This document shows, piece by piece, positions 49,345 through 56,057 of a stretch of 64,000 nt of DNA (positions are counted from its first letter, which is position 1; every line of letters starts with the position of its first letter). Location: NCBI RefSeq assembly GCF_002305895.1, contig NZ_CP022203.1, positions 474,501 through 538,500 of the forward strand, given 5' to 3'. A model generated the notes under the pieces. That model did not search any database, was not told the origin of the DNA, and saw only the letters and a program-made list of their open reading frames with translations. The stretch is from Corallococcus macrosporus DSM 14697. GTDB taxonomy: Bacteria; Myxococcota; Myxococcia; Myxococcales; Myxococcaceae. The position numbers were made by a program, and so were the translations under genes.

Positions 49345-50118
49345 ATGAGCCCCGCGGGCACCTTCTCCGAGCGGCTGGTGGATGCGGGCCGGGGCCTGCT
49401 CACCGGCGCCACGAGCGCGTCGGTGGGGGTGGCTCGCAGCGTGGGCGTGGTGCTGAGGTCCATGGGCGGCGGCGTGGCGCACTGCGCGCGTGGCCGGCCT
49501 CGCGAGGGGATTCCCCGGCTGGGCCAGGGCCTGACGCGCGTGGCGCAGCTCCCCGCGGACGCGGTGCTGATGATGGGCGGGCGCGTGCTCAGCTCGGTGC
49601 AGGTGCTCGTCGGCCTGGAGCCGCCGGGCCGCCGCCTCACGGAGGACGAGGTCTCCCGCCTGCGGCCCATCTTCGGAGACAGCCTGGACTTCGCGGCGGT
49701 GCGGGTGAAGGTGGGGCGGCTGGGCCTGTTGGGCCTGCCCGGGCGGGCCTTCGCGCACGGCGACACCGTCTTCGTCCCGCCCCAGAGCGGGGGCGTGGAC
49801 TTCGGCCTGCTCGTCCACGAGCTGACGCACGTGTGGCAGCACCAGCACGGCGGCACCGCCTACCTGAGCGCGGCGCTGGCCGCCCAGTGGTCCGGGGACG
49901 GCTACGACTGGCGCAAGGGCGTGAGCCGCGAGAAGCGCTGGGCCCAGCTCAACCCCGAGCAGCAGGCTCAGCTCATCGAGGACGCCGCCGTCGCCGGCCT
50001 CATCCCCTTCACCTCGCCGGTGTCGCCGCGCATGAAGCTGCGGGGCTGGTCGGACGCGGCGCTCGCGCTGCTGGATGAAGCGGTGACGTGCCTGCACGCG
50101 GGCCGCGGCGCGCCCTGA
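49345..50118 (+). CDS. DUF4157-like zincin-fold protein
   Basis: 257 residues. The central segment RLRPIFGDSLDFAAVRVKVGR...GRAFAHGDTVFVPP...LLVHELTHVWQHQHGG is the DUF4157 pattern, with a HELTH zinc-binding motif. DUF4157 is often found near extracellular contractile injection systems and toxins, but none is adjacent here. No signal peptide; the N-terminus has weakly hydrophobic helices. Confidence 0.8.
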   Translation: MSPAGTFSERLVDAGRGLLTGATSASVGVARSVGVVLRSMGGGVAHCARGRPREGIPRLGQGLTRVAQLPADAVLMMGGRVLSSVQVLVGLEPPGRRLTEDEVSRLRPIFGDSLDFAAVRVKVGRLGLLGLPGRAFAHGDTVFVPPQSGGVDFGLLVHELTHVWQHQHGGTAYLSAALAAQWSGDGYDWRKGVSREKRWAQLNPEQQAQLIEDAAVAGLIPFTSPVSPRMKLRGWSDAALALLDEAVTCLHAGRGAP

Positions 50119-52445: not shown

Positions 52446-53009
52446 ATGAGCGCGCCGTCCCGGAGACTGAACCTGGACTGGGTGCTGCCCTCGCTGGCGT
52501 TGGGGGGCCGCTTCCCCATCGACACGGCGGAGCACCTGGCCGCGAAGCTCGGCATCCGCTGCGTGGTGGATGTGCGGGTGGAGGCGTGTGACGACGAGCG
52601 CGTCCTGCGCGAGCACGGCATAACCCTGCTGCACCTGCCCACCGAGGACCTCCGCGCCATCCGCGGCGACCGGCTGGATGACGGCGTCGCGTGGGTGACG
52701 GAGCAGCTCGCGCAGGGCCACAAAGTCTATATCCACTGCGAGCACGGGGTGGGGCGCAGCGCGCTGTTGGCCCTCTGTGTCCTGGTGGCCCTGGGCCATC
52801 CGCCCCTGGAGGCGCTGGCCCTGGCGAAGCAGCGGCGCTGGCAGGTGTCGCCCAGCACGGAGCAGCTTCGCACCTTCATGTCGTGGGCGGAGACCTGGCG
52901 TCAGCGGCATGCGGCCGCGTGGCCTGTGCCCCGGTTGGAGGACCTGGCCGCCATTGCCCACAGTCACCTGGCCCAGCCGCCACCGCTGTCCCGCCTGGGC
53001 GAGGACTGA
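52446..53009 (+). CDS. dual-specificity/tyrosine-type phosphatase
   Basis: 187 residues from the ATG at 52446. The P-loop HCEHGVGRS (Cys and Arg of CxxxxxR) and the upstream general-acid region ITLLHLPTEDLRAI fit the DSP superfamily. The N-terminus LDWVLPSLALGGRFP resembles the usual DSPc entry. 12 bases precede the phosphoribosyltransferase-kinase gene, so they form an operon and may act on one phosphorylated substrate. Confidence 0.85.
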   Translation: MSAPSRRLNLDWVLPSLALGGRFPIDTAEHLAAKLGIRCVVDVRVEACDDERVLREHGITLLHLPTEDLRAIRGDRLDDGVAWVTEQLAQGHKVYIHCEHGVGRSALLALCVLVALGHPPLEALALAKQRRWQVSPSTEQLRTFMSWAETWRQRHAAAWPVPRLEDLAAIAHSHLAQPPPLSRLGED

Positions 53010-53021
53010 GGGAGCGACGCG

Positions 53022-54857
53022 ATGTTGGTGACGGGAGAACATCCGCGAGAGGTGGACCCCACGGCGGAGGCGCGGGCGCTGGCGAGCGCCTGGTGGGAGG
53101 TGGACGCGCTGCCGCCGGGCCTGACGCGCCACGCGGCGTTGGTGTCGCTGCTCATCCGCGCCGGGGAGTGGGTACAGGGCGTCCTGGACGCGGAGCAGGT
53201 GGTCCACCAGGGCGAGGACGGTGACACGGTGCTGGCGCGCGCCTGTGAGTCCACGCTGCTGGCCTTGGGGCACGCGGTGGTGGCGTCGTGGACGGACGGC
53301 TTCCGCGCGGACCTGTCGCGCGTGGGCAGCGCGCTGGAGTCGCTGGGCGGGTTGGGGCTTCCTCCGCGCGTGCGGTGTAAGGTGCCTCGGGGCTACGCCT
53401 TCCAGGGCCTCTATCCGGAGTTGTACCTGGCGTCGGCCCGGGCGCTGCCCGGGGAGGGCGGCCCCTGGCGCGTCGTGGGCATCCGCGGCATCGGCGCGAG
53501 CCTGGCGGGCGTGGTGGCCGCGGCGCTGGGCACCCAGGCGCTGTGCTTCGTCCGGCCGCGTGGGCATCCCTACCGGCGCACGCTGTCGCTCTCACCCGAG
53601 CGGACCGCGCGGCTGGTGGAGGAGGCGCGCGCGGGCTACCGCTTCGTGGTGGTGGACGAGGGGCCGGGGCGGTCCGGCTCGTCCTTTGGCGCGGTGGCGG
53701 AGTTCCTGGAGGCGCGGGGCGTGGCGCCCTCGTCCCTGTTCTTCCTGCCCGGGCACGGCGGTGACGTCGGGCCGCACGCGACGCCGAAGCACCGGGAGCT
53801 CTGGCGCCGGGCCCGGCGCGGCGTGGTGGACTTCGAGTCGGTGATGGTGACGCCGCCCGAGCCCGCCCATTCGCTGGCGAGCTGGGCGGAGGACGTGACG
53901 GGCAAGGCGACCGCGCCGCTGGAGGACCTGAGCGCTGGGGGCTGGCGGAAGCACCTGCTGCAGGACGTCCCGAAGGCCGCGTGGCCCGCGGCGCACCGCT
54001 GGCGTGAGCGCCGCAAGTACCTGCTGCGCGCGGGCGGCCGGCCGTGGCTGCTGAAATTCGCGGGCCTGGGGGCCTATGGCGCGCGTGCCTACCTCCAGAC
54101 GCGGGTGCTGGCGGACGCGGGCCTGGGCGTGCCCGTGTCGGGCCTGAAGCATGGCTTCCTGGTGCAACCCTGGCTGGAGGAGGCGCGGCCCCTGAGCGCG
54201 GTGGGGCGCGGGGTGGACCGCTGGGAGCTGGTGGCGCGCGTGGGGGCGTACCTGGGCTTCCGCTCACGTCACTTCGGGCGCGTGGAGGATGGGTGCGGCG
54301 CGTCCACGCGCGAGCTGTGGGAGATGGCGCGCTACAACACGGAGGTGGCGCTGGGCCGTGAGGTGGCGCAGGCGCTCCACGTGTGGATGCCCCGGCTGGG
54401 CGCGCTGGAGCGGATGTCGCGCCGGACGGTGACGGACAACCGGATGCACGCGTGGGAGTGGCTGGTGTTGCCCGGTGGCCGCGTGCTCAAGGCGGACGCG
54501 GTGGACCACCACCGGGCGTACGACCTGGTGGGCTGCCAAGATTTGTCCTGGGACCTGGCGGGCGCGGCGGTGGAGCTGTCGCTGGACGCGGAGGAGCTGG
54601 CCGCGCTCTGCGCGGTGGTGGAGCGCCACAAGGGCCGGCTGCCCCCGCTGGAGCTGCTGCGCTTCCACCGGCAGGCCTACCTGGCCTTCCAGTTGGGGGA
54701 CCATGCGCTGGCCGCCGCGTCCTATGACGGGCACGCGCCGGATGAAGCGGCCCGGTTGCGGCATGCCGCGGCCCGGTATGCGGAGCTGCTGCGCCGCGAG
54801 CTGTCCCCGGCCAGCCGTCCACACGCGGGCGCGGCGGGAGCGGGCGCGCAGATGTAA
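53022..54857 (+). CDS. phosphoribosyltransferase-like and kinase-like fusion protein
   Basis: 611 residues. N-terminal ~120 residues helical. Residues ~125-270 are PRTase-like: WRVVGIRGIGASLAGVVAAALG, then YRFVVVDEGPGRSGSSFGAVAEFLEARG, a PRPP-loop in which the usual DD-TG-T is VDEGPGRSGSS. Residues ~320-600 resemble the aminoglycoside/choline kinase fold: KYLLRAGGRPWLLKFAG (beta-3 Lys), ...VLKADAVDHHRAYDLVGCQDLSWDLAGAAVEL with the late Asp-Trp-Asp. The nucleophilic HxD loop seems altered. Similar PRTase/phosphatase modules occur in Ter-type stress systems; function here is unknown. Confidence 0.7.
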   Translation: MLVTGEHPREVDPTAEARALASAWWEVDALPPGLTRHAALVSLLIRAGEWVQGVLDAEQVVHQGEDGDTVLARACESTLLALGHAVVASWTDGFRADLSRVGSALESLGGLGLPPRVRCKVPRGYAFQGLYPELYLASARALPGEGGPWRVVGIRGIGASLAGVVAAALGTQALCFVRPRGHPYRRTLSLSPERTARLVEEARAGYRFVVVDEGPGRSGSSFGAVAEFLEARGVAPSSLFFLPGHGGDVGPHATPKHRELWRRARRGVVDFESVMVTPPEPAHSLASWAEDVTGKATAPLEDLSAGGWRKHLLQDVPKAAWPAAHRWRERRKYLLRAGGRPWLLKFAGLGAYGARAYLQTRVLADAGLGVPVSGLKHGFLVQPWLEEARPLSAVGRGVDRWELVARVGAYLGFRSRHFGRVEDGCGASTRELWEMARYNTEVALGREVAQALHVWMPRLGALERMSRRTVTDNRMHAWEWLVLPGGRVLKADAVDHHRAYDLVGCQDLSWDLAGAAVELSLDAEELAALCAVVERHKGRLPPLELLRFHRQAYLAFQLGDHALAAASYDGHAPDEAARLRHAAARYAELLRRELSPASRPHAGAAGAGAQM

Positions 54858-54956: not shown

Positions 54957-56057
54957 GTGAGCTCCATTCCTCATCCTGACTTCACGGCCGCGCGCTTCTC
55001 CACCTGCCCGGATGCGCGCCTCCAGCCGGCGCCCGCGGACGGCGTGTTGCCGGAGGGCTTCTTCACCACGACGAACCTGCCCACCTACGTGCGCGTGGGC
55101 GGTGCCTGGCGCATGCCGCGCGAGCCCCGCATGGACGGCGCGCTGGTGCTGGACGCGCAGGGCGAGCTGTGGATTCGCGAAGGGCGGCGCGTGCGCGCGG
55201 GCGAGCGCGTGGTGGTGGGCCACGCCGAGGACGGCAGCGAGGGCGTGTACGTGAACTCCACCTACCTGGCCGGAGAGGGCGAGGGGGAGTTCAAGTTCAT
55301 GACGAGCGCGGTGTCGCGCGAGAAGCCCATTGACTACGCCCACATGGCCCGGGTGCTGGTGGACGAGCGCGAGCGCGGGGGCTACCCCATCTGGGTGACG
55401 GGGCCGGCGCTGGTGCACTCACGGGCGCGCGCGGACATGACGTGGTTCGTGGCCAACGGCTTCGTGGGCGCGCTGCTGGCGGGCAACGCGGTGGCGGTGC
55501 ACGACATCGAAGCGTCCATCTTCGGCACCACGCTGGGGATGAGCGGCTCGGGCGAGGCCACCTCGGGCGGCCACGGCCTGCACATGCGCGCCATCAACAA
55601 GGTGCGGGCGGCGGGCTCCATCGCCAAGGCGGTGGAGGCCGGGGTGATTACCAACGGCATCATGCACGCGTGCGTGGTGCACCAGGTGCCCTTCGTGCTG
55701 ACGGGCTCCATCCGGGACGACGGGCCGCTGCCGGACGTGGTGACGGACAACCTGGAGGCGCAGGTGGCCATGCGTCAGCACGCGGTGAAGGCCACCATGG
55801 CGGTGATGATCGCCACGGCGCTGCACGCCATCGCCACGGGCAACATGCTGCCGGCGTTCGTCACGGAGAGGGACGGCTCGCTGCGGGAGCTGCCCACCAT
55901 CTGCGTGGACTCGTCCGAGTTCGTGGTGAGCAAGCTGAAGGACCGCGGCACGCACCAGGCCTTCGGCGTGGTGACGAACGCGCAGGACTTCATGCACATC
56001 CTGCGGCTCTACGTGGAGCGCGACCTGGCGGCGCGCGGGCTGCCGGTGCCGAAGTAG
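54957..56057 (+). CDS. LOR/SDH (TIGR00300, ArgZ C-terminal-like) family protein
   Basis: 366 residues from a GTG at 54957. Contains the Rossmann-like stretch YPIWVTGPALVHSRARADMTWFVANGFVGALLAGNAVAVHDIEASIFGTTLGM and the family phrase GGHGLHMRAINKVRAAGSIAKAVEAGVITNGIMHACV. This region is shared with the ornithine-cyclodeaminase-like domain of ArgZ and with plant LKR/SDH-related proteins (LOR/SDH). Likely amino-acid metabolism; substrate not assigned. About 100 bases after the PRTase-kinase gene, so cotranscription is uncertain. Confidence 0.8.
   Translation: MSSIPHPDFTAARFSTCPDARLQPAPADGVLPEGFFTTTNLPTYVRVGGAWRMPREPRMDGALVLDAQGELWIREGRRVRAGERVVVGHAEDGSEGVYVNSTYLAGEGEGEFKFMTSAVSREKPIDYAHMARVLVDERERGGYPIWVTGPALVHSRARADMTWFVANGFVGALLAGNAVAVHDIEASIFGTTLGMSGSGEATSGGHGLHMRAINKVRAAGSIAKAVEAGVITNGIMHACVVHQVPFVLTGSIRDDGPLPDVVTDNLEAQVAMRQHAVKATMAVMIATALHAIATGNMLPAFVTERDGSLRELPTICVDSSEFVVSKLKDRGTHQAFGVVTNAQDFMHILRLYVERDLAARGLPVPK

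Follow-up and report, generated by a model that had tools for sequence, protein, structure and literature searches.

The locus analysed here raises the question of what a small phosphatase gene does directly ahead of a gene whose product joins a phosphoribosyltransferase (PRTase) part to a kinase part. In the window, i.e., the whole analysed stretch of 64,000 nucleotides, the sequence-only reading had regarded the fusion as a stand-alone protein, perhaps related to Ter-linked systems. The results presented below suggest, with a probability of about 0.4, that the phosphatase and the fusion constitute a detached module within an inositol-linked saccharide pathway that is both widespread and uncharacterised, the chemistry proposed for the pair included.

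Gene organisation of the locus

The window belongs to a genome that consists of a single contig of 8.97 Mb. Re-reading of the sequence placed both open reading frames, and the 12-base spacing between them, where the sequence-only reading had put them. The following features were distinguished:

52446–53009, + strand: gene of a dual-specificity-type phosphatase (DSP), 187 aa (Pfam DSPc 2.8e-11, PTP-SAK 1.1e-10)
52734–52760, + strand: catalytic signature HCEHGVGRS of the DSP (read from the sequence, conserved in orthologues)
53010–53021, + strand: 12-base gap gggagcgacgcg from the DSP stop codon to the ATG of the fusion
53022–54857, + strand: PRTase–kinase fusion gene, 611 aa (open reading frame, AlphaFold model, 293 relatives)
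53022–53381, + strand: N-terminal helical domain, residues 1–120 (secondary structure of the model)
53382–53831, + strand: type I PRTase domain, residues ~121–270 (structure match)
53655–53684, + strand: PRPP-type loop D212-E-G-P-G-R-S-G-S-S221 (residue conservation)
53832–54821, + strand: choline-kinase/APH-fold domain, residues ~271–600 (structure match)
54435–54554, + strand: putative kinase catalytic stretch D472...E479...K490-x-D492...D507..W-D511 (near-invariant)

The 12-base gap may plausibly serve as the ribosome-binding site of the fusion gene. The start codons of both genes are backed by conservation, as the homologues start at the corresponding sites, MSA.SRRLNLDW and MLVYGDH. Since dN/dS is low (~0.19–0.27 for the DSP and 0.12–0.27 for the fusion) and homologues are also present in other phyla, both open reading frames are considered real genes.

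The gene at 54957–56057 (+ strand) lies 99 bases downstream of the fusion, and its syntenic homologue (L035:6929–8029) matches the NPN-dependent ornithine cyclodeaminase model NF052526. It is syntenic in Myxococcus only and therefore probably lies outside the DSP–fusion module. The open reading frame at 49345–50118 (+ strand) contains a metalloprotease-like (HExxH) motif, VHELTHVWQHQ, with a resemblance to the DUF4157 type that was judged by eye.

Predicted structure and conserved residues of the fusion protein

The AlphaFold2 model of the fusion, built on 48 aligned sequences, had a mean pLDDT of 92.7 and a pTM of 0.93, and residues 1–270 modelled alone reached a pLDDT of 92.8. In this confident predicted structure, residues ~121–270 adopt the type I PRTase fold. 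The alignment with uracil PRTase 6wn8 gave a VIA-align Z of 9.1 and an rmsd of 3.0 over 131 residues, Foldseek linked the domain to XGPRT with a probability of 1.00, and all 50 structural matches listed were PRTases, PRTase-fold relatives (e.g., PyrR) or PRPP synthetases. Residues ~270–600 adopt the choline-kinase/APH fold, with a Z of 18.6 and an rmsd of 4.8 over 267 residues of the choline kinase LicA (4r77) and a Foldseek E-value of 5.8e-8 to 4r7b. On account of these matches, the PRTase-like and the small-molecule-kinase-like domains first proposed from the sequence both stand; neither folds as something else in the structure prediction, which had been named as the way to check them.

At the sequence level, the fusion alone showed no family match in Pfam or NCBIfam and no PDB sequence match, 17 members of its family scanned singly against Pfam gave scattered weak matches only, and the family profile had no match among PDB sequences. 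Likewise, the Pfam APH profile did not recognise the kinase domain. The hhalign comparison of the C-terminal profile with four APH proteins of the window genome, a set of low diversity, gave no meaningful alignment, and the kinase assignment therefore rests on the fold.

The altered PRPP loop already noticed in the sequence, VDEGPGRSGSS, corresponds to residues 211–221 of the fusion, and its core is conserved: D212, E213, S218, G219 and S220 were invariant in 106 of 106 covering rows (some of them duplicates), S221 was kept in 105, and R178, P179, G181, P183 and R186 of the same domain were likewise invariant (106 rows, some duplicates). With the acidic pair D212 E213 and the S218-G-S-S phosphate-binding loop present, the motif is a variant of the classical PRTase loop. 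In the kinase domain, D472, K490, D492 and D511 are kept almost everywhere among the relatives. The APH signature (HxDxxxxN, DxE/D) was mapped, and the residue roles were assigned, by the order of strands and not by model coordinates; D472 and D492 are near-invariant, and E479 occupies the position where the Mg-binding Asn of a kinase is expected, which counts against the explanation preferred here.

The PRTase domain could also be a PRPP-binding sensor, as in PyrR or PurR, the fusion then acting in the inositol–saccharide pathway with the kinase domain as its sole catalyst. Such a role would agree with the loop DE..SGSS instead of the usual DD..TGGT and with the presence of PyrR and PurR among the structural matches. 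However, the acidic pair, the SGSS loop and the R178/R186 stretch are conserved, and in the most distant myxobacterial full-length relative, G189 (L034/L171), it is the kinase residues that decay (E479C, D492G and D495A) while the PRTase motif remains intact, the opposite of what a sensor would predict. We regard a sensor as improbable. The loss of most kinase residues in G189 also counts against the preferred explanation, a saccharide-pathway module in which both domains would be catalytic.

Distribution of the fusion and its genomic context

A total of 293 relatives of the fusion were found in species-representative genomes, the nearest named one in Myxococcus vastator (92% identity). The distribution is patchy, with a full-length fusion in 17 of 100 relative genomes. 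Neighbourhoods were compared in the 80 loci kept, most of them alphaproteobacterial, using gene calls from a codon-score script whose starts may be off.

Some relatives depart from the common pattern. The fusion of G147 (L031) reads 813 aa, owing to an in-frame insertion of ~220 aa after about residue 95, and that of G189 sits outside any recognisable cluster. A fusion 82% identical to that of the window, with Myxococcus synteny on both sides, occurs in a record labelled Comamonas sp. KCTC 72670 (L036), an organism label that looks wrong.

The neighbours that recur across phyla (Alphaproteobacteria, Myxococcota and others) are INO1 (inositol-3-phosphate synthase), a TIGR04290 methyltransferase and a protein annotated as 'beta-xylosidase', as well as a nucleotidyltransferase, CgeB-type and GT4 glycosyltransferases, NDP-sugar epimerases, a zinc dehydrogenase and a Gfo/Idh/MocA oxidoreductase. 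The cluster of myxobacteria also includes an MsbA-like ABC exporter, and in S. meliloti 1021 the cluster, with its fusion relative, is located on pSymB, where the match to the fusion spans 253446–255086 of NC_003078. The fusion is indeed stand-alone at the window locus, as the sequence-only reading described it, whereas at other loci it lies within a saccharide cluster or shares a genome with one.

The co-occurrence analysis showed TIGR04290 in 12 of 17 fusion-positive and 1 of 83 fusion-negative relatives (Fisher p = 7e-11, shared ancestry ignored), and the 'beta-xylosidase'-like gene in 13 of 17 and 4 of 83, respectively (p = 7e-10, again ignoring shared ancestry). In the family of G198, TIGR04290 was present in 17/17 fusion-positive versus 7/82 fusion-negative genomes (p = 6e-14, with the same disregard of ancestry), and 34 of 35 further fusion carriers had it, compared with none of 14 control genomes. 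INO1 was dropped as a marker because it is common throughout the genus, where its presence says little. Three Myxococcus genomes (G006, G018 and G024) carry the fusion and the DSP without TIGR04290 and without the beta-xylosidase-like gene, which counts against the preferred explanation. Membership of the fusion in an inositol-linked saccharide pathway is nevertheless very probable. Within the collection of papers searched, none contained TIGR04290 or the S. meliloti locus-tag prefixes tried, the tags being guessed from position.

According to passages of PMC5512222 that cite Anantharaman 2012, PRTases form part of Ter systems, and the PRTase–kinase–HAD fusion of G262 described below recalls multi-enzyme nucleotide chemistry; both would suit a Ter-like pathway leading to a nucleoside-like metabolite or a phosphorylated signal. 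However, TerD had 0 matches in the 8.97-Mb window genome (compared with matches in 2 of 14 control genomes), no Ter-type PRTase family was among the Pfam matches of the fusion, and its neighbourhoods contained saccharide genes and no Ter genes. We consider a Ter-like pathway very improbable, and the Ter link suggested from the sequence was abandoned. The accompanying proposal, that the pair builds and removes a phosphorylated signal, is conceivable, although the genome evidence agrees better with a pathway of biosynthesis than with a signal.

The phosphatase and its counterparts at other loci

The window DSP was recognised by the DSPc profile with 43.8 bits (cut-off 33.5) and has the intact HCxxGxxR[ST] active site (here HCxxGxxRS), in agreement with the dual-specificity phosphatase read from the sequence. 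A DSP lies directly upstream of the fusion, on the same strand, for 23 of 27 Myxococcota fusion genes, and the same order, strand and tight spacing are found in Caulobacter, Sphingosinicella, Propylenella and one Microvirga MAG. Of the 80 loci of the broader sample, only 13 have the DSP upstream, and most alphaproteobacterial fusion loci are without it. The neighbourhood survey thus supported the DSP–fusion linkage in Myxococcota and found it sparse elsewhere.

A histidine phosphatase is present in 36 of the 80 loci, in seven of them directly downstream of the fusion. In G262, the middle of a 997-aa relative (L197:3156–6149, G262:C13) matches the fusion-family kinase, with a HAD-IIB sugar-phosphatase-like domain behind it and a PRTase-like motif, DDPPRTAGT (read by eye), ahead of it. 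The gene of this protein and the one upstream of it, whose product has a protein-kinase-like domain, overlap, and the G262 genome is without TIGR04290. Given the DSP, the histidine phosphatase and the fused HAD-IIB domain, a phosphatase is therefore a recurrent partner of the fusion, of changing type, and the phosphatase partnership was upheld in this broader form.

The closest DSP paralogue outside the two clusters of the window genome (the second is described below) is 43% identical over 138 residues and shares HCEHGVGR. It ends an operon-like run of INO1, PAP2_3, CDP-alcohol phosphatidyltransferase/GtrA and a protein of unknown function (L180:7807–12854, i.e., 565.8–570.9 kb of the window contig, outside the window), and in the Myxococcus genomes checked the distance between it and INO1 is ~4 kb. 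Judging by its gene content, the run is likely an inositol-lipid operon and its DSP possibly a candidate inositol-phosphate phosphatase. Because the paralogue sits in such a run, an inositol-phosphate-type substrate is plausible for the window DSP as well. In a passage of PMC9246714, M. xanthus is cited as reportedly making ceramide phosphoinositol; the inositol-lipid phosphatase identified in that work belongs to the PgpA family and not to the DSPs, and therefore supports such a step in principle only.

In 9 of 16 Myxococcus genomes the DSP is present without an adjoining fusion, under purifying selection where this was measured. As it outlasts the fusion, it may have a job of its own, which counts against the preferred explanation. 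The two proteins might accordingly act separately, with the DSP kept as an inositol-phosphate or inositol-lipid phosphatase and the adjacency being a myxobacterial habit; the paralogue in the inositol-lipid-like operon and the lack of a DSP at most alphaproteobacterial loci point the same way. This is unlikely, however, in view of the arrangement shared by most Myxococcota and the other taxa named above, and of the other phosphatases that stand in elsewhere. A joint module of DSP and fusion is preferred.

Alternate loss of the fusion between two loci

The window genome has a second cluster at ~2.088–2.105 Mb, 1.56 Mb from the window pair, with its own intact DSP, the TIGR04290 methyltransferase, the beta-xylosidase-like gene and glycosyltransferases. 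The fusion is missing exactly between the DSP and the beta-xylosidase-like gene, its place in M. xanthus; judged by this gene order, it is deleted from the remote cluster. The M. xanthus strains G019 and G023 present the reverse pattern, as they keep the cluster copy and have the window-type copy deleted, with different end points (window-equivalent about 53017–54619 and 53110–54832) and the DSP intact. A third deletion at the window-type locus was found in G007, which has no other fusion copy. The presence of one fusion each in the window genome, G019 and G023 is in keeping with a pathway that one copy can serve, whichever of the two loci holds it.

Deletions that differ in their end points and spare the upstream DSP would also suit a toxin–antitoxin or anti-phage pair, in which the fusion is harmful and the DSP its antidote. 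However, many relatives occur without a DSP, and the co-occurrence with a biosynthetic gene is near-complete. Searches for a defence or phage origin were negative throughout: there was no PADLOC match, and no fusion relatives were found among viral contigs and phage records. Such a pair is hardly credible, and the saccharide-pathway module remains the preferred explanation.

Proposed function of the gene pair

Since the fusion travels with an inositol/sugar cluster, the likeliest role of the pair is to build part of a sugar compound for export and not to produce a stress signal. The specific chemistry, i.e., phosphoribosyl transfer, dephosphorylation and re-phosphorylation, is put forward tentatively; we infer the catalytic steps, their order, the acceptor and the end product from the fold, the invariant residues, the phosphatase pairing and the logic of BtrL/BtrP and CobT/CobC. 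The PRTase domain would use PRPP to place a 5-phosphoribosyl group onto an acceptor, a cyclitol or a sugar, whose probable source is the inositol phosphate made by INO1. The phosphatase (the DSP here, a histidine or HAD phosphatase elsewhere) would strip phosphate from the phosphoribosyl product or its precursor, and the kinase domain would phosphorylate an alcohol on the same small molecule. The product might then join the pathway encoded by the cluster, 1.56 Mb away in this genome, with its glycosyltransferases, the TIGR04290 methyltransferase, epimerases, oxidoreductases and an ABC exporter.

In its most far-reaching form, the proposal is that of an undescribed two-headed enzyme, which would transfer phosphoribose from PRPP onto an inositol-type acceptor and also phosphorylate that acceptor, with interchangeable phosphatases (DSP, histidine phosphatase or HAD), to yield an unusual ribosylated cyclitol block for an exported glycan of rhizobia, Methylobacterium, Roseomonas, Azospirillum, myxobacteria and others; taken as a whole, this is rather doubtful. 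The family has hundreds of members, including the pSymB copy in Sinorhizobium meliloti 1021, a model symbiont, and no curated family was found for it. Its tight association with INO1, the TIGR04290 methyltransferase and glycosyltransferases makes an uncharacterised saccharide pathway accessible to experiment.

Comparison with known systems

The NCBIfam models TIGR04290 and TIGR04295 match other members of the clusters in which the fusion occurs, whereas the fusion itself is annotated, where annotated at all, only as "hypothetical protein". Ter-linked systems likewise have a PRTase in a multi-enzyme setting, but TerD is absent from the window genome. Type I PRTases (uracil PRTase, APRT and XGPRT) share the fold of residues ~121–270, with an acidic pair followed by a Ser/Gly phosphate loop; they differ in the loop itself (DD..TGGT as opposed to DEGPGxSGSS), in the helical and kinase domains added in the fusion and in the lack of a sequence-level match. 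The choline kinase LicA and the APH superfamily share the fold of residues ~270–600 and, if the mapping by strand order holds, an Asp each where the catalytic and the metal residue would lie, whereas the fusion has Glu at the position where Asn would be expected, additional conserved K490 and D495-H496 and a fused PRTase, and is not matched by Pfam APH.

In the butirosin (BtrL/BtrP) and cobalamin (CobT/CobC) pathways, a phosphoribosyl group is transferred to an acceptor, after which a partner phosphatase removes the 5'-phosphate. These systems have no fused kinase, and we know of no described precedent for the pairing of PRPP chemistry, a kinase and a partner phosphatase. The histidine phosphatases of the saccharide cluster give sub-threshold matches to the CobC model. 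Common to both systems and the window pair is a phosphatase gene linked to a PRTase gene, a likeness in the way the systems would work.
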